A DNA stretch of 64,000 bases from a virus: positions 1 to 64,000 of the IMG/VR virus record IMGVR_UViG_3300045116_000451; one strand, given 5' to 3'. This document shows, in pieces, positions 2,734-42,208 of the stretch. How positions within the stretch are numbered: the stretch's first letter is position 1; each line of letters opens with the position of its first letter. The position numbers and the translations under genes were made by a program. The notes under the pieces were generated by a model. It was not told the DNA's origin. It made no database searches and saw only the letters and a program-made list of their open reading frames with translations.

Positions 2734-5097
2734 ATGCAGGTAGTCACGCTCGATCAGCCGTTCGACCCGGAGCGACTTCCGGCCGGCACGTACGCGGCCA
2801 CGAGCGACACGCCGGCGTACACGCTTCTCTTCGCCATGGTCGCCTACGGCATGGCTCGCAGGCTCGGGCAAAGGTTCCTGGACGGCGGACGAATTGCCAT
2901 CGGAGCGCAGGTCCCGGGCGCCCGCCGCAACGCCGAATTGCCGTCCGGGATGCGCACGATCACGCTGCCGGAAGACTACTTCGCCGACACGCCGGACGAC
3001 TACCAGGACTGGCGAAAAGCCTGGTGGCGCGAAGTCATCCAGAACTCCGTCGACGCCGGGGCGACTCACATCGAACTCGGGATCCTGCAGCGCGACGATG
3101 GGATGTTCGTAGTTTCATGCCTCGACGACGGCTCGGGCATGACCGAGGACGTGCTCCTGAACGGCTTTCTCGTCGGCCGCGGCAGCGGCAAGCGCGCAAG
3201 AGATCAAGATCGGCGTCGGCCACAGATTGATTGCCTGGACCCGGACGCGCCCAAGTCCGAGACGATCGGTGGTTTCGGCGTTGCGAAGGAACTCATCGCG
3301 TTCGCGTGGCCCAAGTGGACGATCGTCACGAACAGGCTGCGCGTCGACGGCGCCGGCCCGAACTACAGCGTGTCCGAAGCCCCGAACGCCATCGCGCCTC
3401 ACGGGACGCTCGTGGAAGCTACGATGCCGCACGATTCTCATACGGACACGGGCGAGGCCGAAGCCGTGATCGGGATGAGCAATTTACCGGGAGTAACCTT
3501 CACAGTGAACGGGCAGCGGAAGTTCGCCCGAATGCGTCCTGGTGACGAGATCAAGGACGGTCGCTTCGGCTACTGCGCCATCGCCCACTACAACCGTGGC
3601 GCCGAGCGCAAGGGCATGTTCGTCCGTGTTGGCGGCATGTGGATGTACACGAAGCGGTTGCCGGACAAGTTGAGAGGCGCCGTCGTGATCGAGATCGACA
3701 GAGGGCGGTCGCGGTCGCTGCTCGCTGCCGACAGGGACCGAATCCGCAATTACGAGTTGTCGGATTGGGTCGACAAGCTCGGCCAGCGCATAGCCGTGGA
3801 CGTGCGCAGCAGCCTACAGGCCGCCGAAGAAGAAAAAGAGCGCGAGTACGCGGGCGCCAATGCTCCGTCCGAGCAAGCCGTCTCGAAGGTGCTCTTCGAC
3901 ATGCCCGTTCTGCCGGCGTTGCGGCGAGGCATCGGCCTGTTTGATGAGGCCGAGGCGATCCGCCTGGCACGAGCCGTCGCCTCGACAGGAACCGGACCCG
4001 GGACGGTTGGCTCTGGAGCCTCGGAGATGGACGCGGAAGCGCTCGGGCGGCTGCTGTCTCTTCTCGCTCACGCAACGCCCGTGACCGGAGAACGGCATCG
4101 AGAAAACATCGCGAAGCAGCTCGCGTGGAAACCGGCTTTCATCGTCAAGTGGGAGAAGCGGCGTGGCACTCCCCCGACGAGATTCTTCCCGGAAACGATG
4201 AGCGGGCCAGTTCTACTGCTGGCACGGGTCTGGAGCGCGCTATGCGGCTACGTGCTCATGCTCATGAACGCCGACCGGACCTACAACATCGGCTGGACGT
4301 TCGACCCGGAAGTTGGAGCGTCCTACTACACGAAGGGGCGCGCGCATCGCGAATACCTGCTCCTGAACCCGCTCGTGACGATGTCCGAGGGCGAGTTCCG
4401 GGTGTCCATGGCGAAAGAAGCCAAGGTGCTCAACCCGCACGACGACGAGCAGCTCAAGCACCTCGTCGCGGCCGCGCAGCACGAGTGCGCACACATGCTC
4501 ATGTGGCGGCCCGAGCACGAGACGACCGGATATCACGACGAGGAGTGGGGACAGTACGTCACCCGCACAATCGAGAAGATGGCGGACAAATGGCCGGTCG
4601 TGAAGAGGATCGTCCGCTTGGTGAGCGCTGCTCAGAGGAAGGCAACTGAGGCGCACAAGCAGACGGAGCAGGAAACGTCCGCCAGGGAAACGGCCCGCAT
4701 GTTGTTGCCGTTCTTACAAGAAATCGATCGATCAAGAGAAAGCGATTCGTGCGAGCGCATCGAAGATGTCATGCGCACGAATGCCGAAGTGATCTGGCGT
4801 CTGCTGGCCAACAGATCGTCGCCGGCTGTCTCGGGGACGTTCTGCGACAGCGAGCACGGTTTGGCGGTGTTGTACTGGGGCCGTATACGTGGTCCGTTCT
4901 CGGCTGACATGGCAATCGTATGGCTCAAGGAATTGGGATTTTGGGTTCTTGCTACGGACGACAGCGATAGGACCCGCTTGTGGGAAGCGGTGGCGCATGA
5001 AGCGAGCGGTCGGGACATAGAGATTGGTACAACAATCGCGCTGGGGGAGTACCGTGATCTGCTGCGCACATACAGGAAGACGGTTGAAGCGGGGTAG
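2734..5097 (+). CDS. GHKL (Hsp90/histidine-kinase fold) ATPase with HExxH motif, rIIA-like
   Basis: 787 residues from the ATG at 2734; a longer open frame upstream would overlap the 45-residue gene. The N-terminal third has the GHKL ATP-binding signature: N-box EVIQNSVDAG (about 100-109), G1 box DDGSGM (131-136), G2 box GGFG (179-182). Far downstream is HECAH (583-587), an HExxH zincin-type motif, with acidic and His residues after it (RPEHETTGYHDEEWG). Large phage proteins with an N-terminal GHKL ATPase include T4 rIIA, though I see no specific rIIA signature beyond the ATPase fold. The HExxH could be a metal-dependent peptidase site. Next gene follows after 2 nt. ATPase fold is confident; the role is not. 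Confidence 0.75.
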   Translation: MQVVTLDQPFDPERLPAGTYAATSDTPAYTLLFAMVAYGMARRLGQRFLDGGRIAIGAQVPGARRNAELPSGMRTITLPEDYFADTPDDYQDWRKAWWREVIQNSVDAGATHIELGILQRDDGMFVVSCLDDGSGMTEDVLLNGFLVGRGSGKRARDQDRRRPQIDCLDPDAPKSETIGGFGVAKELIAFAWPKWTIVTNRLRVDGAGPNYSVSEAPNAIAPHGTLVEATMPHDSHTDTGEAEAVIGMSNLPGVTFTVNGQRKFARMRPGDEIKDGRFGYCAIAHYNRGAERKGMFVRVGGMWMYTKRLPDKLRGAVVIEIDRGRSRSLLAADRDRIRNYELSDWVDKLGQRIAVDVRSSLQAAEEEKEREYAGANAPSEQAVSKVLFDMPVLPALRRGIGLFDEAEAIRLARAVASTGTGPGTVGSGASEMDAEALGRLLSLLAHATPVTGERHRENIAKQLAWKPAFIVKWEKRRGTPPTRFFPETMSGPVLLLARVWSALCGYVLMLMNADRTYNIGWTFDPEVGASYYTKGRAHREYLLLNPLVTMSEGEFRVSMAKEAKVLNPHDDEQLKHLVAAAQHECAHMLMWRPEHETTGYHDEEWGQYVTRTIEKMADKWPVVKRIVRLVSAAQRKATEAHKQTEQETSARETARMLLPFLQEIDRSRESDSCERIEDVMRTNAEVIWRLLANRSSPAVSGTFCDSEHGLAVLYWGRIRGPFSADMAIVWLKELGFWVLATDDSDRTRLWEAVAHEASGRDIEIGTTIALGEYRDLLRTYRKTVEAG

Positions 5098-20515: not shown

Positions 20516-21079
20516 ATGCACCGCCTAGACCCCCTCCGCGAGCTACTCCGCGCCGCCGGCGCGGCGGTCGAGGTCCGCGCGGGCCTGGCCGGACTCGCGG
20601 CGGACGGCGCGGTGCTGGCGCCTGCCACGTGGACCGCGCGCGTAGCACGTCCTGGCCTAGCTGTCGTGGCTGGTCGGGTCACGCTGGACGCGCACGCGAT
20701 CCCGCGCGCCGAGCTGCGCTCGGGCGAGCGCGCCTACCGCGCGACCTGGATCGAGGTCGTGGGCGGGGCCGTCCGGGTCGTGCGCGGAGTGATCGCGTCG
20801 CGCCTCACGGACCGGTCGCGCGTGGACTGGTCGCACGCGTCCGGGCTGGCCGAGTGGCGACGCACGGCCGGGGCCCGCGCGAGGCGCCCTAGCTGCCCCG
20901 CTGTCGCGTCGAGCACCTCGGACGGGTCGGACCATGGGCGCCCCGCCGAGCGCGATAGCGCGTGCTATACACAGTTTGCGGTGGGGCCTCGCGGCGGATC
21001 CGATGCCGCGACGTTCCACCACGCATCGATTGCGACCCCGGGCACAGCGCCCGGGGATTCGGGTTGCGCGCGCTGGTAG
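20516..21079 (+). CDS. Hypothetical protein, C-terminus uncertain
   Basis: Open for 187 residues. The first about 125 residues look protein-like (REL, AAV, VTLDAH, YRATWIEVVGGAVRVVRGV), whereas the rest runs over a promoter-like palindrome (20955-20968) and a strong hairpin, so the real C-terminus may be shorter or the frame partly fortuitous. The start is preceded by a hairpin CCCCTG...CAGGGG that includes a spacer repeated at 32711. Confidence 0.4.
   Translation: MHRLDPLRELLRAAGAAVEVRAGLAGLAADGAVLAPATWTARVARPGLAVVAGRVTLDAHAIPRAELRSGERAYRATWIEVVGGAVRVVRGVIASRLTDRSRVDWSHASGLAEWRRTAGARARRPSCPAVASSTSDGSDHGRPAERDSACYTQFAVGPRGGSDAATFHHASIATPGTAPGDSGCARW
20955..20971 (+). promoter_or_regulatory. 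Additional palindromic operator-like site
   Basis: ATAGCGCGTGCTAT with a following TATACA resembles the promoter palindromes of this block but has no good -35 hexamer. It lies about 100 nt upstream of a full copy. Confidence 0.4.
21036..21056 (+). terminator. Strong hairpin, terminator-like
   Basis: CCCCGGGC-ACAGC-GCCCGGGG: perfect 8-bp GC stem with a 5-nt loop, just before the promoter at 21064. No U-run. Confidence 0.45.
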
Positions 21080-21092
21080 CACGTGCTATCAT
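21064..21092 (+). promoter_or_regulatory. Palindromic promoter copy 1
   Basis: TTGCGC (21064-21069), 17-nt spacer, TATCAT (21087-21092). The perfect palindrome TAGCACGTGCTA (21077-21088) lies between the hexamers and overlaps the -10: a built-in operator. Confidence 0.7.
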
Positions 21093-21099
21093 GCGTAGC

Positions 21100-21155
21100 G
21101 CGTGGCGCGCGGTGCGCCTACGCGCTACGGTCGCCCGGACCGGATACCGGGCAGG
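21100..21155 (+). repeat. 56-nt leader repeat, copy A (identical to 23452-23507)
   Basis: Identical 56-nt segment found again at 23452-23507. It folds as two stems: an outer pairing including GCGC/GCGC arms around a GCGGT loop, and GCCCGG...CCGGGC immediately before the AGGGAGA ribosome-binding site. Confidence 0.85.
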
Positions 21156-23416: not shown

Positions 23417-23445
23417 TTGCGCGCGCTGGTAGCACGTGCTATATG
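23417..23445 (+). promoter_or_regulatory. Palindromic promoter copy 3
   Basis: TTGCGC (23417-23422), 17-nt spacer, TATATG (23440-23445), with perfect TAGCACGTGCTA at 23430-23441. Upstream CCTCCCAAAAACCGC is shared with copy 2. Confidence 0.7.
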
Positions 23446-23451
23446 CACAGT

Positions 23452-23507
23452 GCGTGGCGCGCGGTGCGCCTACGCGCTACGGTCGCCCGGACCGGATACC
23501 GGGCAGG
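23452..23507 (+). repeat. 56-nt leader repeat, copy B (identical to 21100-21155)
   Basis: Perfect copy of the leader at 21100-21155, 2.35 kb away, again ending directly at the ribosome-binding site (GCAGGAGA) of a gene. Confidence 0.85.
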
Positions 23508-23517
23508 AGACACCATC

Positions 23518-23949
23518 ATGGCTACTATCCTCACCCATCTGGCGGACCCCCGGAGCGCGACACCGGGTCCGTGCGCTATTTGCGGTTCCGACGCGACGTC
23601 CTGGCGCCGCACCGGCCTGGCCGCGGGCGGGCTCGTGCGCGCGGCGCGCGCTTGCGAGGCGCACGAGCACGACGTGGTCAGCGCGTTGGCCGCGCTCACC
23701 ATGGACGATTGCGTCTCGTTCGTGCCGCGCGCGAGGCGGCTCGCGCGCGCCGATGCCGCCGAGCGTCGCGCGGAGAGGCTGTGCGCGCGAGCTGGCGGGT
23801 GGCGGCGGATGTCCGCGTCGCTCCGTGGCGCATCGTCGCACACGCACACGTGTGCGCTCGTCGGGGGCGCATGCGCGCGCGAGGCCGCCGCGCTCGATGC
23901 CTATGCCGCCGCGCTCCGGGCGTCGATCGGGACGGGGGGTGAGTCATGA
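23518..23949 (+). CDS. Hypothetical protein with N-terminal zinc knuckle
   Basis: 143 residues. CAICGSD (about 19-25) and a later C-EAHEHD provide a CxxC...CxxH-type zinc site; the rest is Ala/Arg-rich helix with a second His/Cys patch (SSHTHTCALVGGAC). Overlaps the ComM-like gene by 4 nt (ATGA). Coupled expression suggests a partner of that protein. Confidence 0.6.
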   Translation: MATILTHLADPRSATPGPCAICGSDATSWRRTGLAAGGLVRAARACEAHEHDVVSALAALTMDDCVSFVPRARRLARADAAERRAERLCARAGGWRRMSASLRGASSHTHTCALVGGACAREAAALDAYAAALRASIGTGGES

Positions 23950-25433
23950 CCAGCACCTACACGCTCGCGGGCATCCGCGCTGTGCCGGTGACGATTGGCG
24001 TTACCATGACCGAGCGATCCGGGGTCTCGATCATGGGCATGACCGACGTCGACGCGCGCGAGACGCGCGTGCGCGTGCGCGCTTCCCTGGCGCGCCTCGG
24101 TGTGGACGTGGCCAGCCTCTCGGTCACAGTCATCGCCGATCCGCCCGTCACGTCGGACGCGGCGGCGCTCGATCTGCCGATCGCGTGCGCCGTGCTGGAG
24201 GCGCTCGGCGCCGTGCCGCCCGAGGCGCTGCGCGGCACCGTCATGCTCGGCGGGCTGTCGCTCACCGGCGCGGTGCGACCGATCCGGGGGCTCCTGCCTC
24301 GGCTCATCGGGGCGCGCGAGGCCGGGATGCGGCGGGCCATCGTGCCGGCGGGCAACGCGCGCGAGGCGGGCGCGGTCTCGGGGATCGAAGTGTTCGTCGC
24401 CGAGCACCTGGAGCAGGTGCGCGATCACGTGCGCGGCAAGGCTCTGCTTTCGACCGCGGCGGCGCGGGCCTACGAGGCGAGCGACGAGGCGGCGTTCGAC
24501 CTGGGCGACGTCAAGGGCCAGCACGCCGCGCGGCGAGCGCTCGAAATCGCCGCCGCGGGCGGCCATCACCTTCTCATGCTCGGCCCGCCGGGCGGCAAGA
24601 CGATGCTCGCCCGGCGAATGCCGTCCATTCTGCCGCCCCTCACCTTCGACGAGGCGATCGAGGCGAGCGTGGTTCACTCGGTCGATGGCATCTTGCCTGC
24701 CGACTCGGGCATCGTGCGGTCGCGTCCCTTCCGCGCCCCCCACTACACCGTGAGCGAAGCCGGGCTCGTGGGCGGCGGCGATCCGCCCCGGGCCGGCGAG
24801 GTCTCGCTCGCGCACCACGGCGTGCTGTTCCTCGACGATCTGGCGGAGTTCCGTCGGAGCACGCTCGAACAGTTGCGCGCTCCGCTCCACGACGGGTCCG
24901 TGACCGTCGGCCCGAACCGCGCCCGTGCGACGTTCCCGGCCCGCCCGATGCTCGTGGCGGCCATGAACCCCTGCCCGTGCGGCTACGCGGGAGAGGGGAG
25001 CGGGCGGTGCCGGTGTACCGTCGACGCGGTCACCCGATACCGCGACCGCGCGCTCGGTGCGCTCGGCGATCTGATCGACGCCCGAGTGCGGATCGAGCCG
25101 ACGAGCCCGAGCGCTCTAGCGGCCGCACCCCCGGGCGAGCCGTCGAGCGCTGTGCGAGAGCGCGTGGTGGCCGCGCGCGCGCGGCAGGCAGCCCGGCAGG
25201 ACGGGCAGCTCAACGGGCGCCTCGACCAGGCCGATTTCGAGCGCGTTGCGCCGCTCGACGAGCCCTCGACGCGCATGCTCGCTATCGCGGCGGAGGCCCG
25301 CGCGCTCGACGCCAGCGCCATTGTGCGCGTCCGTCGTGTCGCGCGCACGATCGCGGACCTAGACGGTGTCGAGCACGTGCGCGCCGAGCACGTGGCCGAG
25401 TCGCTCGCCCTCGCGGCCCCGGTTCTCCTGTAG
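23946..25433 (+). CDS. ComM/YifB-family AAA+ (Mg-chelatase-like) protein with altered Walker motifs
   Basis: 495 residues, full family length. N-terminal ChlI domain (about 1-165), AAA+ core (about 185-395) and Mg-chelatase C-terminal domain. The order of family landmarks is intact: KGQHAARRALEIAAAGGHHLL, FRAPHYTVSEAGLVGGG, NPCPCGYAG, CRC, YRDR. However the P-loop is GPPGGKT (213-219), one residue shorter than the usual GPPGSGKT, and Walker B ends LDDL (296-299) where the family has LDEL. ComM promotes branch migration in natural transformation; this copy may be an inactive or retuned relative. Overlaps the preceding Zn-protein gene by 4 nt. Confidence 0.85.
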   Translation: MTSTYTLAGIRAVPVTIGVTMTERSGVSIMGMTDVDARETRVRVRASLARLGVDVASLSVTVIADPPVTSDAAALDLPIACAVLEALGAVPPEALRGTVMLGGLSLTGAVRPIRGLLPRLIGAREAGMRRAIVPAGNAREAGAVSGIEVFVAEHLEQVRDHVRGKALLSTAAARAYEASDEAAFDLGDVKGQHAARRALEIAAAGGHHLLMLGPPGGKTMLARRMPSILPPLTFDEAIEASVVHSVDGILPADSGIVRSRPFRAPHYTVSEAGLVGGGDPPRAGEVSLAHHGVLFLDDLAEFRRSTLEQLRAPLHDGSVTVGPNRARATFPARPMLVAAMNPCPCGYAGEGSGRCRCTVDAVTRYRDRALGALGDLIDARVRIEPTSPSALAAAPPGEPSSAVRERVVAARARQAARQDGQLNGRLDQADFERVAPLDEPSTRMLAIAAEARALDASAIVRVRRVARTIADLDGVEHVRAEHVAESLALAAPVLL

Positions 25434-27098: not shown

Positions 27099-27126
27099 TT
27101 GCGCCGCGTATACGCGGTGCTATCGT
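27099..27126 (+). promoter_or_regulatory. Palindromic promoter copy 5 (variant operator)
   Basis: TTGCGC (27099-27104), 16-nt spacer, TATCGT (27121-27126), with a different perfect palindrome CCGCGTATACGCGG (27104-27117). Followed by hairpin GCCCGC-ACGGC-GCGGGC (27134-27150) and AGGAGGTGA. Confidence 0.65.
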
Positions 27127-27171: not shown

Positions 27172-28743
27172 ATGTCCGAGAAACAGACCACCCGCCCCGC
27201 CATGGCGTCGGCGCTCATCCGCGCGAGGATTCGCGCGGTGCCGCTCGTGGCCGTGCGCACGGCGGACCAACCCGCCGCTGTGCGGGTGCTCACGGCGGCG
27301 CTGCTCGAAAGCGCCGTCGAGCGCGACGAGCCCCCGCCCGGGATCGTCGTGCATGACCCGGTGCGAGGGTTCGCGCCGGGCACCACCGCCGGAGCGGCCG
27401 GCCAGGCCGCGCAGGAGGCGATTGCGGCCATGCTCGGGGACCTCGACCCGAGCATGAGCGCCGACCCCGTTACCGCGCTCACAATGGCGGCCGCCGCGCC
27501 GCCGGACACCGTCGTGATCATGATGGCCGGTGACCGCGCGCTCGGCGAGCCGCGCCCGGCGCTGGCGGCCCTCCTGCTCCGGGACCGCTACGCCGCCGGG
27601 CGGTCCACGCTCGTTGTGCTCGGCGCGTCCTGGAGCCCCGCGGCCGAGCTTGGCTCGGACGTGTACGTGCTGGACGACGAGCCGCCAGAGACGCCCGAGC
27701 GGCGCTCGACGGTCGAGCGCCTCGTGGCCGATGCGAAACTCAGAGCGGACACGGCAACGATCGAGTCCGCATGCGGGTTCACTCGGGGGCTGAGCCGGTT
27801 CGCGGTCGAGCAGACCGTGAGCCTCGCCCTCAACGGAAAGGGGCTGCGCTTGGACGTGCTCGCGCGCGTCTGGCGCGAGGCGATCGACCGCACGCCCGGG
27901 CTCCGAGTGGAGTCCACGGGCTCCGGGGACGCCGAGTCCGTCGCCGGGCTCGCCGCGCTCCAGGCGCACGCCGCCCGCGTCACGAGCGGCCGCGCCCGCC
28001 CCGATGTTGTCGTGTGGATCGATGAGATCGAGAAGGCGCTGGCCGGCTCGTCCGGCGCCGTCGCCGACAGTTCCGGCGCCTCGCAAGCCGTGCTCGGATC
28101 CATCCTGACTGCGATGGAGCAGTCCGGGGCCGAGGGCATGATCCTCGTCGGCCCGCCCGGGACCGGGAAAAGCCTGTCCGCGCGCGTGATGGGCGCGGCC
28201 GCGGGCGTGCCCGTGATCCAGCTCGACCCCGGGCGAATCAAAGGGTCGCTCGTCGGGCAGACCGAGGCGCAAGCGGCGGCCGCCATGGCCGCGCTACGGG
28301 CCATGGGCGGCCGCTGCTACTGGGTCGCAACGAGCAACGGCCTGGCGACCGTGCCGCCCGAGCTGCTCCGCCGGTTCACGGACGGCGTGTGGTTCGTGGA
28401 CCTGCCCGCGCCCGACGAACGCGCCGCGTTGTGGCGCTTGTACCTGGACCGGTGGGATCTCCAGGACGAGATGCCCGCGTCGAGCGCCGACGTCGGCTAC
28501 AGCGGCGCCGACGTGCGCAACGTGTGCCGCACGGCGTGGCGGGACGGCGTCTCCGTCGCCGCCGTGATGGCGAGTTACGTGCCCGCCTCGAACGCGGCGC
28601 GCGATCGGATCGAGGCCCTGCGGCGCGGTGCCGTGGGCGCCTATCGATCGGCGTCCTACACGGGCGCCTACAGGATGCCGGTGGCGGAGCCGGCGAGTCA
28701 GCCGGCGACGGGCCGGAAACTGCAGCTAGGACGGGAGGGCTGA
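27172..28743 (+). CDS. Ycf46-like AAA+ ATPase with Walker B segment before the P-loop
   Basis: 523 residues from ATG 27172 after AGGAGGTGA. The N-terminal half (about 1-270) has the layout of the degenerate N-domain of Ycf46-type ATPases. Then VVWIDEIEKA (Walker B-like, Asp284-Glu285) precedes, rather than follows, the P-loop GPPGTGKS (327-334); the chain continues with KGSLVGQTEAQ, sensor-1 region ATSN (386-389) and ELLRRF (arginine finger, 397-402). The order is therefore permuted relative to classical AAA+. It is followed by DUF1257- and DUF2997-like genes, a recurrent partnership. Confidence 0.8.
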   Translation: MSEKQTTRPAMASALIRARIRAVPLVAVRTADQPAAVRVLTAALLESAVERDEPPPGIVVHDPVRGFAPGTTAGAAGQAAQEAIAAMLGDLDPSMSADPVTALTMAAAAPPDTVVIMMAGDRALGEPRPALAALLLRDRYAAGRSTLVVLGASWSPAAELGSDVYVLDDEPPETPERRSTVERLVADAKLRADTATIESACGFTRGLSRFAVEQTVSLALNGKGLRLDVLARVWREAIDRTPGLRVESTGSGDAESVAGLAALQAHAARVTSGRARPDVVVWIDEIEKALAGSSGAVADSSGASQAVLGSILTAMEQSGAEGMILVGPPGTGKSLSARVMGAAAGVPVIQLDPGRIKGSLVGQTEAQAAAAMAALRAMGGRCYWVATSNGLATVPPELLRRFTDGVWFVDLPAPDERAALWRLYLDRWDLQDEMPASSADVGYSGADVRNVCRTAWRDGVSVAAVMASYVPASNAARDRIEALRRGAVGAYRSASYTGAYRMPVAEPASQPATGRKLQLGREG

Positions 28744-28746
28744 GAC

Positions 28747-29094
28747 ATGCCGTGCAGCACTCGCTACGAAACCACGTCCATGGACGTGGCGAACATGAAC
28801 AGAACGCGCCTCGCGTCCGCGCTCGCGGACGCGGGGTGGAGCGTGAGCCACGACACCCACGCGGGGACGCTCACCGCGTGGTCCAAGGGCGGCGCGCGCC
28901 TGATGATCGACTCGCAGGGGGCACGGGTCGAAACGTCGGCCTACACCGACACCCCCGCCGCCGTCCAGACCGCGATTGCGCGCGCGTACGCGCTGCGCAC
29001 CGTGGCCGAGGTGGCCAAGCGCTTCGGGTTGCGGCAGACCGCCGCGCCCCAGACAACGAACAACGGCGCGACCCGCGTGCGCCTCACGAGGTGA
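28747..29094 (+). CDS. DUF1257 (Ycf35)-like protein
   Basis: 115 residues. YETTSMDVANMNRTRLASALADAGW is close to the start of DUF1257/Ycf35 proteins, and the following strands (GTLTAWSKG, ARLMIDSQGARVETSAY) plus a late AYALRTVAEVAKRFG helix fit that fold. DUF1257 genes often lie beside a Ycf46-type AAA+ ATPase and DUF2997, as here. Function unknown. Confidence 0.65.
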   Translation: MPCSTRYETTSMDVANMNRTRLASALADAGWSVSHDTHAGTLTAWSKGGARLMIDSQGARVETSAYTDTPAAVQTAIARAYALRTVAEVAKRFGLRQTAAPQTTNNGATRVRLTR

Positions 29095-29096
29095 CT

Positions 29097-29363
29097 ATGT
29101 GCCAGTCCGTGAAGGGGCCCCTGGCCCCGAATACCCTCGACGTCGTGATTCTGCCAGACGGCAGGATCCGAATCGAAACCGGCTCGTTCGCCGGTGCCTC
29201 GCACACCAGCGCAAACGCGTTTCTCGCCGCGCTGGTGAAAGAGCTGGGCGTGTCGATCGAGCGGCGCGAGCCGCTCGCGCACACCCACGCTCACGAGCAC
29301 GCTCACGAGCACGAGCACCAACACGCGGGCACGGGCTCGCACGGAGGGCACGACCATGGCTGA
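29097..29363 (+). CDS. DUF2997-like protein with His-rich tail
   Basis: 88 residues from ATG 29097. LDVVILPDGRIRIETGSFAG, then SANAFLAALVKELG, resembles DUF2997, the usual third partner of the AAA+/DUF1257 set. Residues 62-88 add ten or more histidines (HTHAHEHAHEHEHQHAG...HGGHDHG), a likely Ni/Zn-binding tail not part of the core family. Overlaps the next gene by 8 nt. Confidence 0.65.
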   Translation: MCQSVKGPLAPNTLDVVILPDGRIRIETGSFAGASHTSANAFLAALVKELGVSIERREPLAHTHAHEHAHEHEHQHAGTGSHGGHDHG

Positions 29364-30924
29364 CACCGGAACGCTCGGACTGCCCGTTTCGTCGCAGCCC
29401 CCGACCGAGCCCGAGGCGCGCGCCGCGGGAGCGCTCGCCGCGAACGGAGCCCGATTCGACTCGGCCGAACGCCTGGAAATCTCGCGCGTGGTCCTGGCCG
29501 CGTTCGACGCGCCCGCGGCAACGCGCGGGGCCATCGTGGGCGCGCTCGACGTCGCGGCCGACGCGGCCACCTCGATCCGAGTCGGCGGGGTCTACTCGTC
29601 GGCGGCCGCGTTCGTGCGTGACCTGCCGCGCACCACGCGCCCGGTCGCGCGGGCTCTGCTCGTCGCCTGGACCGAGGGGGCGACGGTGCAGGCGCCCGCG
29701 CCCGCGCCCGAGCCCGAGGACGACGGGTTCGAGCCGGAGCCGGCACCGGAGCCGGTGACCGACGCGCCGCCCTCGGTCGAGGCTCCTGCTCCCGCCGCTA
29801 CGGTGCCGGAGCCCGTCGCGGCTGCGCCCGCGCCCGAGCCCGTGGTTGCCCCGCCCCCTCCCCCGCCCCCGGCTCCCGAACCGGTGATGGAGGCCGCTCC
29901 GGCCCCCACGCCGGTGCCCCCGGAACCCGTTGTGGAGCCCGAGCCCGTTCCGCTCCCGGCTCCCGAGCCCGAGCCGGACCTGTCGGATCTGCCGGCCGAC
30001 GCTCTGCGGGCCGTCGAGCAGGTCGAGGATCCGCTGGCGAAATGCCGGTGGCTCGTGCTGTCGTTCGACCGGCTCGGCCGATCGCGACAGGTGCGCGGCT
30101 ACGACGTGGACGTCACGGCGAACGGCGAGGACGTGGACGCGAGGCAGCTCGCCATGTCCAAAAAAATCCTTGACGTTAAACAGTCTAGGGCAATCGGATC
30201 GGCGGACTGCGGCCTGCGCGCGCAGCTGCGCGACGAGTACGCGTTGACCGCGGTGGGGGGCATGTACGCGATTCCCGTGCGCCTCATGTCCGCCGTCCAC
30301 GATCGCCTGACCGAGCATCGCGAACGACGCGGGAGGCTAGTTGCCGCGTTCCGCGAGGCCTACGCGGCGTCCATAGAGGCCGACCGCACGCGGCTCGGCG
30401 CGCTGTTCCGCGAGGCGGACTACCCCGCCGTTGAGGACGCGTGCAATGCGTTCGCCATGGCGTGGACGTGGCGGAGGCTCGACGGCGCGAGCGATGAGGA
30501 CCTCACCGACGCCATGGCCGCCGAGCAGCGGGAGCAGCTCGCGGCCGACTACGCCCGCCAGCGAGCCGAGGTCGTGGCCGGGCTACGGGCCATGTTTGCG
30601 AAGCTCGCGGAGGAACTGCGCGAGCGGCTCACGGCCGAGCGCGAGGCAGGCAAGGGGGCCATTTTCCGCGACGAGCGGGTCGAGAAACTGCGGCGTTTCG
30701 TCGGGCTGTTCGCGGAGCGCGACGTGGGCGATCCAGCCCTCGCGGACGAGGTCGCGCGCGTTGGGCGAGCGCTCGACGGCGTGGACGCGGACGACCTGCG
30801 CCGGGACGACTCGCTCCGGCGGACCACGGCCGAGACGCTCGCGAGCGTGACGGCCGCGGTAGCCACGTTCGAGACGGGAGCGGCGCCCCGGCGCAGGATG
30901 CGCCTTCGCCCCGAGGACGAGTGA
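29356..30924 (+). CDS. DUF3150-like protein with Pro/Ala/Glu-rich linker
   Basis: 522 residues. About residues 1-115 form a helical domain, 116-205 a repetitive Pro/Ala/Glu/Val linker (AP, EPEP, PPPPP runs), and 206-522 a helical domain with MSKKILDVKQ, ALRAQLRDEYAL-type segments and VGGMYAIP resembling DUF3150, a family encoded near MoxR/CobS-type AAA+ ATPases in phages. Two later charged coiled coils. Probably works with the AAA+ protein two genes upstream. The DUF assignment is tentative. Confidence 0.6.
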   Translation: MADTGTLGLPVSSQPPTEPEARAAGALAANGARFDSAERLEISRVVLAAFDAPAATRGAIVGALDVAADAATSIRVGGVYSSAAAFVRDLPRTTRPVARALLVAWTEGATVQAPAPAPEPEDDGFEPEPAPEPVTDAPPSVEAPAPAATVPEPVAAAPAPEPVVAPPPPPPPAPEPVMEAAPAPTPVPPEPVVEPEPVPLPAPEPEPDLSDLPADALRAVEQVEDPLAKCRWLVLSFDRLGRSRQVRGYDVDVTANGEDVDARQLAMSKKILDVKQSRAIGSADCGLRAQLRDEYALTAVGGMYAIPVRLMSAVHDRLTEHRERRGRLVAAFREAYAASIEADRTRLGALFREADYPAVEDACNAFAMAWTWRRLDGASDEDLTDAMAAEQREQLAADYARQRAEVVAGLRAMFAKLAEELRERLTAEREAGKGAIFRDERVEKLRRFVGLFAERDVGDPALADEVARVGRALDGVDADDLRRDDSLRRTTAETLASVTAAVATFETGAAPRRRMRLRPEDE

Positions 30925-37283: not shown

Positions 37284-38030
37284 ATGCAGGGTGACGGTCC
37301 CGCCATTCGACGCCACCTCGACGCACGCCTGGTCAGCTACGCGCTGTCCGTGGTCGAGGGCAAGATGGACCAGGAGCTGGCCGGCACGCTCCAGACGTGC
37401 GCTGCGGCCTGTCTTCAAGCCGCGAGCGGCATCCTGGCGCTCGTGATGGCCTGCCGGGCAACGGCGCGCGCGCCGGCCCTGGTGCGCCTGCTCGACGCCA
37501 AGCAGCGCGAACGCTTGACCACGCTTCTCGAAAGCGTCGCCGAGGTGGTCGAGGACTCGTGGAAAGGTCAGCTGCAGGAAGTCATGGAGGTGGTGGTCGT
37601 CATGGCGTGCTCGACCACGGACGATCCCGAAGTCGAAGCGAACCTGCGCAGCTGGGCTCACGGGCTGCGCCTGGACACGCGCGCGCTCGCAGTACACGAG
37701 GACGAGGACACGATCGAGGACGTCGTCGAACCCGACACGCCCATGCACCGCAGGGAGCACAAGCGCCGATCGCGCTCGTCGCGCTCGGCCTACCAGAAGG
37801 AACGCTGCGACAACCTGGTCGCACGCGCCGTTTCGATGGGCGTTCACACGACGCGGCCGCTTCTCGCGAACGGACAGGTCGTGATCATCGGCCAGGCGCC
37901 TCGGGGACAGGCGAGGCTCGCGAAGCTGCGGGGCTCCATGGCCGAAGCCGAGGTGCTCTGCAAGCAGATCAACGAGCAGATCCGCCAGCTCGGCGTCGGC
38001 GAGCCGAAGCTATCTCAGGCCGTGGGATGA
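37284..38030 (+). CDS. Hypothetical protein preceding the recombinase
   Basis: 248 residues from ATG 37284 (a TTG at 37248 is also in frame but is part of the promoter). Helical N-terminal two-thirds with Cys/Ala-rich segments, an acidic stretch (HEDEDTIEDVVEPD), a basic one (RREHKRRSRSSR), then an alpha/beta end (VVIIGQAPRGQARLAKL). Its TGA overlaps the recombinase ATG, so it may regulate or assist recombination (excisionase-like role is only a guess). Confidence 0.55.
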   Translation: MQGDGPAIRRHLDARLVSYALSVVEGKMDQELAGTLQTCAAACLQAASGILALVMACRATARAPALVRLLDAKQRERLTTLLESVAEVVEDSWKGQLQEVMEVVVVMACSTTDDPEVEANLRSWAHGLRLDTRALAVHEDEDTIEDVVEPDTPMHRREHKRRSRSSRSAYQKERCDNLVARAVSMGVHTTRPLLANGQVVIIGQAPRGQARLAKLRGSMAEAEVLCKQINEQIRQLGVGEPKLSQAVG

Positions 38031-41000
38031 TCGAGCCCGAGGACACGCTCACGGCGGTGCCGAACCGAGCCGACGCGCTCGGCGCGTTCGGCGAGCTTGC
38101 GAACGGCCAGGCGGGCTACAAGGAATCGCGATACGCGCAGGCGATCCGCTCGCTCGTCGAGCGGCTCATGATGAGGGCGACTTCGATCCAGCAAGTGCGC
38201 GGCAAGCGCCGGCTGCGAGAGCGCCCGCAAGACCGCTCGAACAGCGTCAAGACGTACGTCAAGGCGCTGGAGCTGTTTTCGTACTGGTCGGTCACGATCT
38301 ACGGCCGTGAGCTGGACCCGGCCGAGGTCACGACGGCCGTCGTCGGCGATTACGTGTCGTGGCTCCGGGCGGACGCGACGCGTGCCATCGCGAACGCATC
38401 GCCCGAGCAGCAACAACGGCGCGAGGAATACGTCAAGACGCGTCTCGCAGTGCGGCGGCTCATGATCCGCGCATCCGGCACGGATGCGATCCAGGTGCAC
38501 GACGCTGCCCTCAGCGCGATCGAGACGTACGGACAGGCGAACATCCACCAAATCTACGAGGCGCTGCCTCCCAGGGTTCGAGACCGTTACGTGCTGCCGA
38601 AGCAAGATGCACGCGTGCCCCTGGACTACTCGCAGCTGCACCGCGTGCTCAACACCTTGCTCCGAGCGCACAGAGTGATCGAACGCAGCCCAAGCTCGCG
38701 CCAGATCCGCTCCCGGAAGGGCTACATCTGGTCGACCGAAGAGCGCGATCCGCTCATTTACCGCTACCTTCTGGCAAGGGTGACGCCGCTCAAAGAAACG
38801 AGCGTTTCGACGCACCTTTCGGCTCTGAGCGCTGTTTGGCGCGAAATGCTCAAGCGCACGGACCAGGGCCCCGCACCCCTGGTGTTCAACCCGTGGGCAG
38901 ACGCGCTCAGCCAGTCGTCGTGGAGGGTACGCGCGCAGAAGACGGCCGAACGATCACAGCTCGTGCCGAGCAAAGCGCTCACCAAGCCCATTGTGCGAGC
39001 GCTTTTTGGCGCCGCTTCGGGACCGGCGCTGGAGCAGCGGCGCGACAAGCTGGCGCTGGCGCTTCTCACCTGGCTCGGGCTTCGGGCCGAGGAAGTCGTC
39101 GGGGCGCTGCGGGCGGACCTGGGCACGCGCGAGGGCGCGATGGCGCTCACGGTCTACGGCAAGGGCAACAAGGCGCGCCTGGTGCCCGTCTTCGCGGAAA
39201 TCCGGCAGGCGTTTGAGCTGCTGAACGACACGCTTGGGTCGATGACCCGTGAGACGTTCGTCGGCGAGGACGGCCAGCGAAGGCCCACCTACAGCGCGCG
39301 TTACGCGATGGCGCTGCTCGAACCGGACGCGCCGCTCGTGCCTTCGCTCGTGCGCTGGGGCACGAACGTACGCACGGGCGATCCAGAAGCCGACGCACGC
39401 AACCCGCTGGACACCTCGGGTCTGCGGGCGCTCGTGTGCAAGCTCGGCGACCGAGCGAGGGTGCGCGTGGTCGCGACCGGTGAGATCCGGGCGCTCGACA
39501 CGTCCGAGCGGGCGCGTGTGCACCCGCACGCCTTCCGGCACTACGCCGCCACCGCGGCTTCCGAGGGGGGCGTGAGCATGGTCAAGATCAAGGGTCTGCT
39601 CGGCCACGAGTCGATCCGCACGACCGAAGGCTACGTAGAGGTGCCGGCCGAGACGAGCGTCGAGGTGTCGGTGGCGATCTACAGGGCGACGGAGGGGGGC
39701 GAGGCGATGACGGCCGATGAGCTTTCGTCGGCGAGGGTGCGGTCCTCGGCGATCGAGCAGCCGGAGATCGAAGGGGTCGTGGTGCAGCCGGCGAGGGTGG
39801 TTGGAACGGCGCCGGCGGTTTCTCCTTTGGCTGGCTCGGCGCGTGTGGATCCGGGCGAGAAGGTCGCAAGCCCTGGCTGGGCCTACGTGCCGGGATCGGA
39901 AAAGACGATCGCGTACATCCCGCGTGGGATGACCGCGGTCGCGTTCTCGCGGCATGTGCAGTCGCAGGCCCAAGGGGCGAGGGCACGGGCGGAGAAGGCT
40001 CGCGAGACGGGCGACGCCAAGACGTACGAGAGCGCGCTCGCGGAGTACGTCGTGTGGCGCTCGAAGTACCTTTACGTGACCATGCGACAGGGCGAAAAGA
40101 GCAAGCTCGCGTGGTGGACTGGACGGGCTGGACGATGGCAGGGGCTGGAGCGCGCGCCGATCATGGGACCTTCGCAGCTCGGGCCTGAGACCGATCGGGA
40201 TCGAATCGTCACGGACGGCTTGAAAGCGCTGTACGAAGCGTTCTGGGAGACGCGTGGGCCGACGAGCGCTTCGGCTCTTGCCGTGTGGGTCGGTGAGATG
40301 GTGGACACGGCTGCAGGCGTGTTTGCCAGGGCCATGGTCGAGAGGGGCGACAGCTGGGTGGCCTACGACGAGCCGGCGGCGCCGGTCGAGCCTGTGGTGC
40401 GCATGCACCGCTCCGAGGCGATTCTGGAATGGTTCGAGCGCTGGGGCTGGAGCTACCGCGTGACGGGCGAAAAGGGTTCCGAGCGAGGCGGCAACGTTGC
40501 CCTGGCCGAGTTGGAAAGCTTACCGGAGTGGTTCTGGCTGGAGGACCCTCTGCTCGCGCTGCCAGCTGCGGAGCGCCGGCAGCTTCGCTTGTGGATCGAG
40601 CAGCTGCAGGCGCTGCGCCCGTCGCCTGGGCGTCTTGCCGAGGCGGTCGAGCAGATGGTGGACATCATGCGGGCATACCGCAAGCTCGGCCGCGCCTACG
40701 AACAGCGTCTCGAGCGAGAAGGTCGAGAAGAGCTTTCGCCCGAGCTGAAGCTGATGGGCGATCGGCTGCGCGGGATGGAGGGCGCGTTCGCGCAGCAGGC
40801 GTTTAGGCTGTGGCCTACGTTGCGCGAGCCCCTGAGCGCGGCCGCGATCGTGATGGGTCCTGGCCTGCCCTTCAGGGATCGGCTCGCGAAGGCGCTGCGG
40901 GCCCAAGGGATCGACATGGGCAACGCTTCGCAGGCACGCCTGGATCCTGTGCTGCTGCCCGAGGATGCAAGAGCTGGCACGCACGTCTTCGATGCCGCGC

Positions 41001-42208
41001 GTCTTCGCTTCGACGCAAGGGACACGATCGTGCACACGGCTGCGGACAAGCGAGCATGGTTCGAGCAGTTCGGAACGGACTCCGAGTGCGTGGCGCGGCG
41101 GGCTGTGCGCGTTCTGTGGGAGCGTCGGCAGCGTCTTCTCCGATCGCAGGCGCACACGCTCGTGTCGCGACACCTCGACATGTGGCTGGCCTCGCTCATA
41201 CCGTGCCCGGCCGAGATCGAAGAGCGCATGAAGTCGAAGGGCTGGAAGCCGCCGGCTAGCGCCGAGGAAAGGCTCGAAACTTCGGCGGCGGCTTGGCGTG
41301 CGCTCATGGCGGCGATCCGCCGCAGCCTGGGACAGCCGGACCCGGAGGTGTCCCAGCAGGCCGAGCAGGGGGCCGTGGAGCTATTCGCGCCCGAGGTGCC
41401 CGAGGTGCAGGCGATCGTGGCCGAGGGCGCCGAGCAGCCCGTGGCCGTGAGCCCGGAGCGCTTCGAGGCAACGGGCGAGCTTCCCCAGGAAGCGACGGCG
41501 CCTGCCGCCGCAGCGGCGCCGGAGCCTGCTGTAGTACCGCAAGCGGCGGCGAGCGCGCTGCGCGCGTCCGCCCAGCGAGACGGCGACCTCATCGCGATCG
41601 ACGCGCGAGCGCTGTTCGATACGGCCTCCGGCAAGGTCACCTGGCTCGTGCTCACGGCAGGTGCGGCGGTGCTGGGCTGGCCCGCGGACCTGCTCCGCAA
41701 GTTCGGGGCGGGGGCCGGCAGAGTTGCGAAGGTGGCCCTGCTGGACGTCGGCGGCGCCCGCTTGATCTTTCGCTGGCCGGGCGACAAGGGAGGCTTCGTG
41801 CTGCCGGCGAAGGTGTCGGCTCCGCCCGAGGGCGAGACGGTCACCCTCGTGGACGTGACGCCTGCCGAGGAGCGAGCGACCCCGAACCCCCCATGGGCCG
41901 ACCCTAACCAGCAAGCGGCCCAGTGGCCCGGCTATCCAGGAGTGGACCCCGCTGACCAAGGCTCAGCGCTCATGGATTGCATCGCGTGGCCCGAGCAACG
42001 AGAAGCCGAGCCGACGCCCATCGACCGCTGGAGGCTCGCGTGCGCGATGCGCACCTACTCGATCTTGAAGCGCGCCGAGGCCGGAGCGCTCGGGGGACGG
42101 GTGCCGTCCGGCTGGAGCCGTTCTCCCCAGGCAGCCCTGCCGAACGCGGTGCCATCGGTGCTGCCGCACCCGATCGACGTCGCGATGGCCGCCGCTCGCT
42201 CGACCTAG
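38027..42208 (+). CDS. Giant tyrosine recombinase/integrase with 800-residue C-terminal extension
   Basis: 1393 residues from ATG 38027 (ATGA overlap); upstream open frame is a shadow. Residues 50-300 look like SAM-like/core-binding helices. Catalytic set of the tyrosine recombinase fold is complete: Arg353 (GLRAEEV), Lys379 (YGKGNKARL), His501-x-x-Arg504 (HAFRH), His527 (LLGHES), Tyr536 (TTEGY). Typical phage integrases have about 300-450 residues; here about 830 residues follow, helical and Trp-rich, with an Ala/Pro linker near 1150 and a small alpha/beta module near 1180-1270. Function of the extension is unknown. Converges with the structural operon, overlapping by 4 nt. Confidence 0.85.
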   Translation: MIEPEDTLTAVPNRADALGAFGELANGQAGYKESRYAQAIRSLVERLMMRATSIQQVRGKRRLRERPQDRSNSVKTYVKALELFSYWSVTIYGRELDPAEVTTAVVGDYVSWLRADATRAIANASPEQQQRREEYVKTRLAVRRLMIRASGTDAIQVHDAALSAIETYGQANIHQIYEALPPRVRDRYVLPKQDARVPLDYSQLHRVLNTLLRAHRVIERSPSSRQIRSRKGYIWSTEERDPLIYRYLLARVTPLKETSVSTHLSALSAVWREMLKRTDQGPAPLVFNPWADALSQSSWRVRAQKTAERSQLVPSKALTKPIVRALFGAASGPALEQRRDKLALALLTWLGLRAEEVVGALRADLGTREGAMALTVYGKGNKARLVPVFAEIRQAFELLNDTLGSMTRETFVGEDGQRRPTYSARYAMALLEPDAPLVPSLVRWGTNVRTGDPEADARNPLDTSGLRALVCKLGDRARVRVVATGEIRALDTSERARVHPHAFRHYAATAASEGGVSMVKIKGLLGHESIRTTEGYVEVPAETSVEVSVAIYRATEGGEAMTADELSSARVRSSAIEQPEIEGVVVQPARVVGTAPAVSPLAGSARVDPGEKVASPGWAYVPGSEKTIAYIPRGMTAVAFSRHVQSQAQGARARAEKARETGDAKTYESALAEYVVWRSKYLYVTMRQGEKSKLAWWTGRAGRWQGLERAPIMGPSQLGPETDRDRIVTDGLKALYEAFWETRGPTSASALAVWVGEMVDTAAGVFARAMVERGDSWVAYDEPAAPVEPVVRMHRSEAILEWFERWGWSYRVTGEKGSERGGNVALAELESLPEWFWLEDPLLALPAAERRQLRLWIEQLQALRPSPGRLAEAVEQMVDIMRAYRKLGRAYEQRLEREGREELSPELKLMGDRLRGMEGAFAQQAFRLWPTLREPLSAAAIVMGPGLPFRDRLAKALRAQGIDMGNASQARLDPVLLPEDARAGTHVFDAARLRFDARDTIVHTAADKRAWFEQFGTDSECVARRAVRVLWERRQRLLRSQAHTLVSRHLDMWLASLIPCPAEIEERMKSKGWKPPASAEERLETSAAAWRALMAAIRRSLGQPDPEVSQQAEQGAVELFAPEVPEVQAIVAEGAEQPVAVSPERFEATGELPQEATAPAAAAAPEPAVVPQAAASALRASAQRDGDLIAIDARALFDTASGKVTWLVLTAGAAVLGWPADLLRKFGAGAGRVAKVALLDVGGARLIFRWPGDKGGFVLPAKVSAPPEGETVTLVDVTPAEERATPNPPWADPNQQAAQWPGYPGVDPADQGSALMDCIAWPEQREAEPTPIDRWRLACAMRTYSILKRAEAGALGGRVPSGWSRSPQAALPNAVPSVLPHPIDVAMAAARST

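Follow-up and report, generated by a model that had tools for sequence, protein, structure and literature searches.

Ycf46 and Ycf46-like proteins are two-part AAA+ ATPases that occur in cyanobacteria, plastids, many bacteria and some phages. In Synechocystis, a cluster duf2997-ycf35(DUF1257)-fed7 ferredoxin has been described (PMC4284462); the activity of the carbonic anhydrase EcaB is lowered in a ycf46 mutant, and the ycf46 operon answers many stresses, iron deficiency among them (PMC7496141). Genes of the four families Ycf46, DUF1257, DUF2997 and DUF3150 also lie adjacent in chromosomal cassettes, chiefly of Verrucomicrobiota and also of Lentisphaerae and Bacteroidota (for example loci L075, L077, L081, L082, L109, L131 and L134). 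The locus investigated here comprises four consecutive genes, coding for an AAA+ protein and for g036, g037 and g038, at positions 27172-30924 of a window of 64,000 bases (bases 1-64000 of the 95,653-base phage contig of IMG/VR record IMGVR_UViG_3300045116_000451). A first-pass annotation made from the sequence alone had placed these coordinates and the number of genes correctly and had read them as a Ycf46-like/DUF1257/DUF2997/DUF3150-like set. This reading was right at the family level, but it overlooked that Walker B precedes Walker A in the core of the AAA+ protein. Because of this rearranged core the locus was set apart from the known association; the AAA+ proteins of the chromosomal cassettes are, in contrast, canonical and their DUF1257 and DUF2997 proteins ordinary. 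The term 'mobile block', also used for the locus, is better replaced by part of a phage genome.

In the AAA+ protein of the window, the Walker B motif (VVWIDEIEKAL) is situated N-terminal to the Walker A motif (GPPGTGKS). A canonical profile built from 98 canonical Ycf46-type relatives matched this protein as four blocks in the order 1-3-2-4: profile positions 15-250 matched residues 15-268 (29.5 bits), positions 329-367 matched residues 279-318 (the Walker B block; 39 positions, 35.5 bits), positions 269-332 matched residues 321-384 (the Walker A block) and positions 371-500 matched residues 382-496 (sensor-1 to lid). No second Walker B-like block was left in the window protein at the canonical site after Walker A when compared with this profile. 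The best PHROG match was likewise split into four pieces, and the Pfam AAA match was partial, covering residues 323-377 and thus the Walker A part only. The adjacent blocks beta1-alpha1-beta2-alpha2 and beta3-alpha3 have been exchanged, while everything before and after them is in canonical order. The gene and its parts are as follows.

27172-28743, plus strand: AAA gene, Ycf46-like AAA+ ATPase with a segment-swapped core, 523 amino acids (aa) (evidence from profile, motif order, tree and structure model)
27172-27975, plus strand: N-terminal part, residues 1-268, an alpha/beta fold followed by helices, without Walker motifs (profile match; secondary structure)
28006-28125, plus strand: displaced Walker B block, residues 279-318, VVWIDEIEKAL, beta3-alpha3, preceding Walker A (profile; D284 and E285 in 56/56 sequences)
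28132-28314, plus strand: Walker A block, residues 321-381, GPPGTGKS, beta1-alpha1-beta2-alpha2 (profile; K333 in 56/56)
28315-28659, plus strand: sensor-1 N389, arginine-finger candidate R401 and lid, residues 382-496, in the canonical place (profile; N389 and R401 in 56/56)

The protein shares with Ycf46-type proteins the two-part architecture and homology from the N-terminal part through the lid, and its best viral structural matches in Foldseek are named ycf46. Walker A, Walker B, the sensor-1 Asn and the arginine-finger candidate are all present; they follow one another, however, as Walker B - Walker A - sensor-1 instead of Walker A - Walker B - sensor-1. As the motif order differs, the protein was filed as a permuted derivative and not as an ordinary Ycf46-type member; the swap of the two Walker blocks was found in the single viral clade to which it belongs. 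A confident AlphaFold2 model from an alignment of 56 sequences (predicted local distance difference test 92.8, predicted template modelling score 0.87) showed the elements in the permuted order, i.e. strand 279-283, helix 303-317, strand 321-326, helix 333-344, strand 348-351, helix 361-379 and strand 382-388. The closest solved structures, both by fold (Foldseek) and by profile, are the classic AAA unfoldases Cdc48/p97/Rix7, with an overall template modelling (TM) score that is low, about 0.3-0.5; unlike these, the phage protein has a permuted C-terminal core and an N-terminal domain without Walker motifs. The N-terminal part (residues 1-268) might represent a degenerate AAA+-like domain. P-loop NTPases with a permuted motif order are known from the circularly permuted GTPases of the YjeQ/RsgA kind. 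These belong to another superfamily and have moved domain termini, whereas in the phage protein adjacent blocks inside the AAA+ domain are exchanged. No paper on a permuted AAA+ domain was found in the open-access literature, where the circular permutations met in the search concerned methylases; an earlier description elsewhere is possible.

Scans of IMG/VR, for which the whole AAA+ protein and its part C-terminal to Walker B served as queries, yielded about 70 loci. With the canonical profile, Walker B was found before Walker A in 73/74 proteins of the permuted clade, the remaining one being unresolved. When the blocks were put back into canonical order in silico, the mean of the best single-domain scores of the permuted-clade proteins rose from 81 to 256 bits, and no protein gained less than 106 bits (window protein: 62 to 224 bits). 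Random swaps of the same size, used as control, gave a mean gain of -0.3 bits; the largest control gain, 176 bits, was taken to be due to a random cut at or near the true junctions. The distance from Walker B to Walker A is 42-48 aa in the permuted proteins; in canonical bacterial and viral relatives with both motifs resolved, Walker A is followed by Walker B at 55 aa. No protein with both motif orders was found among the permuted and canonical relatives compared. D284 and E285 of Walker B, G330 and K333 of Walker A, N389 of sensor-1 and R401 were invariant (56/56 sequences). In a tree calculated from 110 proteins, either de-permuted or canonical, all 65 permuted ones lay on one side of a single branch (Shimodaira-Hasegawa-like approximate likelihood ratio test 100), and one change of order sufficed for the whole tree. 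A block rearrangement in the AAA+ core is thus near certain and, as far as sequence comparison goes, the swap is shown to have arisen once in a phage lineage and to have been kept since. As the catalytic residues are all kept, we propose a layout that works: the permuted protein is likely to be active as an ATPase and would represent an apparently functional, previously undescribed layout of the common AAA+ motor. One relative (L212:5043-6651) has a broken reading frame with residues missing just after Walker B, representing either a broken gene or an assembly error.

The permuted AAA+ protein is carried by about 70 phages, almost all from metagenomes. Among 50,697 phage records, the only carrier found was Tunturiibacter phage Tunturi_3 (soil, Finland), an isolated phage in which gp103-gp101 and gp96 correspond to the permuted AAA+ protein, DUF1257, DUF2997 and a DUF3150-like protein; it differs from the window in that its genes are spread out and its DUF1257 and DUF2997 partners are of the ordinary kind (type I, see below). 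Matches in Rhodobacter, Stenotrophomonas and Agrobacterium phages were located mainly around general AAA+ motifs, and the protein of RcMenchie is canonical. One bacterial metagenome-assembled genome, of Myxococcales (L074), showed the permuted gene on a 78-kb contig; two weaker matches on further contigs of the same bin are taken to be canonical copies. Altogether 284 genomes from the phylum of this bacterium were searched, and the permuted form was found in none of the 283 others. The permuted form is thus considered essentially viral.

The three genes downstream of the AAA gene contain the following features.

28747-29094, plus strand: g036, small protein of the MPC family, divergent relative of DUF1257, 115 aa (family of 31 loci; hhalign)
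29097-29363, plus strand: g037, small DUF2997-like protein with a His-rich tail, 88 aa (Pfam 15.1 bits; hhalign)
29280-29360, plus strand: C-terminal His-rich tail of g037 (sequence; kept in 29/32 family members)
29356-30924, plus strand: g038, DUF3150-like partner with an N-terminal extension and a Pro/Glu/Ala-rich linker, 522 aa (64/69 loci; DUF3150 matches within the family)
30043-30885, plus strand: C-terminal domain of g038, residues 230-510, confidently predicted (structure prediction; no solved relative by fold)

The labels DUF1257, DUF2997 and DUF3150 held at the level of families, but none of the three partner proteins of the window passed the Pfam cut-offs. No Pfam match to DUF1257 (PF06868) was obtained for g036, and g037 reached 15.1 bits for DUF2997 (PF11211), below the cut-off of 24.1. 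Comparison of whole families by hhalign linked the g036 family to the DUF1257 family with a probability of 96.1% (E 3.2e-9; 1.5% in the control comparison with the DUF2997 family) and the g037 family to the DUF2997 family with 90.6% (E 1.3e-6; 2.1% in the control comparison with the DUF1257 family). Counterparts in sister loci matched Pfam directly, both for DUF1257 (L009, 4.6e-12; L038, 1.2e-7) and for DUF2997 (L012, 3.9e-12; L006, 1.6e-8). Also g038 showed no Pfam match to DUF3150 (PF11348); a match at E <= 0.01 was obtained for 20/56 of its relatives (best 2.7e-9) and for sister-locus counterparts (L013, 1.1e-16; L012, 8.6e-5), and hhalign joined the g038 family to the DUF3150-like proteins of canonical loci with a probability of 99.9%. 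The search of g038 against the PDB with Foldseek gave no match (best E 0.56), and no open-access paper on DUF3150 was found. The g038 homologue of Tunturi_3, gp96 (L038:15285-16244), is annotated as an HNH endonuclease and is without an HNH match in Pfam.

A neighbourhood survey bore out the recurrence of the AAA+/DUF association, which is found on bacterial chromosomes as well. Over 69 non-redundant permuted loci, a g038 homologue was located near the AAA gene in 64, and the same set of AAA gene, g036, g037 and g038 occurred in 31, so that the grouping of the four genes is not due to chance. Two types of cassette could be distinguished. Type II consists of an MPC protein and a His-tailed protein (31 loci, the window among them), type I of DUF1257, DUF2997 and an 83-aa protein (23 complete loci); no mixed type I/type II locus was observed among the permuted loci. 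On the AAA tree the cassette type changes at least seven times, indicating that the module of small partners is exchanged as a unit. At least four His residues in the last 30 aa were present in 29/32 members of the g037 family (type II) vs 1/26 members of the DUF2997 family (type I); the His tail pointed out in the first-pass annotation is thus real, but marks only one of the two types. Practically all members of the MPC family start with (M)PC and most DUF1257 proteins with MSH, which places Cys or His at position 3. Small proteins with an MPC start also adjoin canonical AAA genes in other viruses (L036:5178-5522, L013:7015-7320 and L018:7498-7770), indicating that the MPC family may predate the permuted clade or have moved into it. 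Three tandem paralogues whose start is ISGTRTDIGPVGATGWTDAQREHL or near it were observed in another record (L005, record bases 92223-94581).

A partial tandem duplication could have produced the block swap if the outer copies were lost afterwards. Despite their new order, the blocks would assemble into an ordinary AAA+ core, given that every one of the three new connections joins strands which lie side by side, or nearly so, in the central sheet. The protein might then form an ATP-driven, Cdc48-like ring that remodels a target protein, with the DUF3150-like protein as its standing partner and the DUF1257/DUF2997-like pair as an exchangeable adaptor by which the target is selected or sensed; in type II, this would perhaps involve a metal ion held by the His tail. 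We give a probability of roughly 0.6 to the reading that the locus encodes an active Cdc48/Ycf46-like remodelling motor whose DUF3150-like partner is nearly constant and whose DUF1257/DUF2997-like module can be exchanged. Two points weigh against it: roughly every second permuted protein has Ala or Ser in place of the last Gly of the P-loop (GxxGxAK), which could change nucleotide handling, and the clade is known almost solely from metagenome sequences. A bolder version, with odds somewhat short of even, would see a once-evolved, fully active phage AAA+ protein with a new motif order, in which the swap alters the coupling of the nucleotide state to the lid and the DUF3150-like partner; it would be a new mechanical variant of the Cdc48-like type, its adaptor being exchangeable between DUF1257/DUF2997 and metal-binding MPC/His-tail pairs. 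Few motors are as widespread as AAA+ domains, and the profiles used to search for them presuppose a fixed succession of Walker A, Walker B and sensor-1; a natural block swap that has been kept with all catalytic residues retained is therefore a test of how far AAA+ chemistry and force coupling depend on the order of the chain. Tunturi_3, an isolated phage of a soil bacterium, offers an entry to the Ycf46-DUF1257-DUF2997-DUF3150 association.

The first-pass annotation had pointed to a metal-linked machine. In such a machine, the AAA+ protein and its DUF1257/DUF2997-like partners would load a metal or Fe-S cofactor into a target enzyme or strip it off, in the manner of a metal chelatase or metallochaperone. 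A metal or redox link of the Ycf46-type cassette is possible because of the EcaB and iron-deficiency data from Synechocystis (PMC7496141) and the ferredoxin neighbour of duf2997 and ycf35 (PMC4284462), and such a function would fit with the conserved His-rich tail of type II and with the Cys or His kept at position 3 of the DUF1257-like protein. Type I cassettes, however, have the same AAA+ and DUF3150-like proteins but no such tail, and unstructured His tails occur also without a metal role; as an explanation of the whole locus, the metal-linked machine is considered rather unlikely.

A function in anti-defence or superinfection exclusion is improbable. Accessory partner modules that can be switched are usual in conflict systems, and a weak match of the AAA+ protein to the anti-phage ATPase IteA (NF042959, NCBIfam) was obtained; this match reached 33 bits against an equivalog cut-off of 510 and covered only general AAA+ motifs, and no toxin, nuclease or protease was part of the conserved cassette in the permuted loci. 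A chaperone for virion assembly or processing, comparable to the MoxR-vWA pairs of some viruses, is quite improbable: AAA+/partner pairs with a role in assembly have been described or proposed for phages and an archaeal virus (PMC7824862), but the cassette of Tunturi_3 is located far from the structural genes, bacterial chromosomal copies with the same partners exist, and the Pfam matches of the window genes that were scanned, a part of all genes, included no recognisable vWA-like partner. That the inverted order is an artefact of assembly or reading, or a chance Walker B-like motif, is hardly credible and was rejected, since, even with the reading frame of L212 broken close to the block junction, the same order recurs in about 70 separate viral contigs, a contig of one metagenome-assembled genome and the isolate genome of Tunturi_3, and the canonical profile recognises the displaced block over 39 positions with 35.5 bits, nothing similar being left after Walker A.

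The four-gene locus is compactly arranged. The AAA gene and g036 are separated by 3 nt, g036 and g037 by 2 nt, and g037 and g038 overlap by 8 nt; owing to this tight spacing the four genes look like one transcription unit. A promoter and leader shared by the four genes had been proposed; the promoter found support in a recurrent element, whereas nothing pointed to a special leader.

27099-27123, plus strand: promoter-like element TTGCG...TGCTAT, 5' of the four-gene unit (recurs in the window)

Five TTGCG...TGCTA(T) elements were located on the plus strand at 21064, 21466, 23417, 25451 and 27099, each ahead of successive genes; within this 21-27 kb set of the window, the gapped pattern TTGCG-N-TGCTAT gave four exact matches vs 0.02 expected. 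A scan for sigma-70 promoters and terminators yielded none above chance, and the element at 27099-27123 is off the sigma-70 consensus. Judged from its recurrence in the sequence, TTGCG...TGCTAT is probably a recurrent phage promoter. A direct repeat of 65 nt (95% identical) is situated at 21091-21155 and 23443-23507, just 3' of two of the promoter-like elements.

Some further genes of the window were observed. Two genes upstream of the cassette, 23946-25433 codes for a full-length YifB/ComM-like AAA+ protein of the Mg-chelatase type (Pfam Mg_chelatase, E 1e-77). A 787-aa protein with a match to ATPases of the HSP90/gyrase-B type (HATPase_c_3, 1.7e-7) is encoded at 2734-5097. The product of 38027-42208 contains a tyrosine-integrase domain (residues 323-539) and, at 1393 aa, has an unusual length for an integrase.

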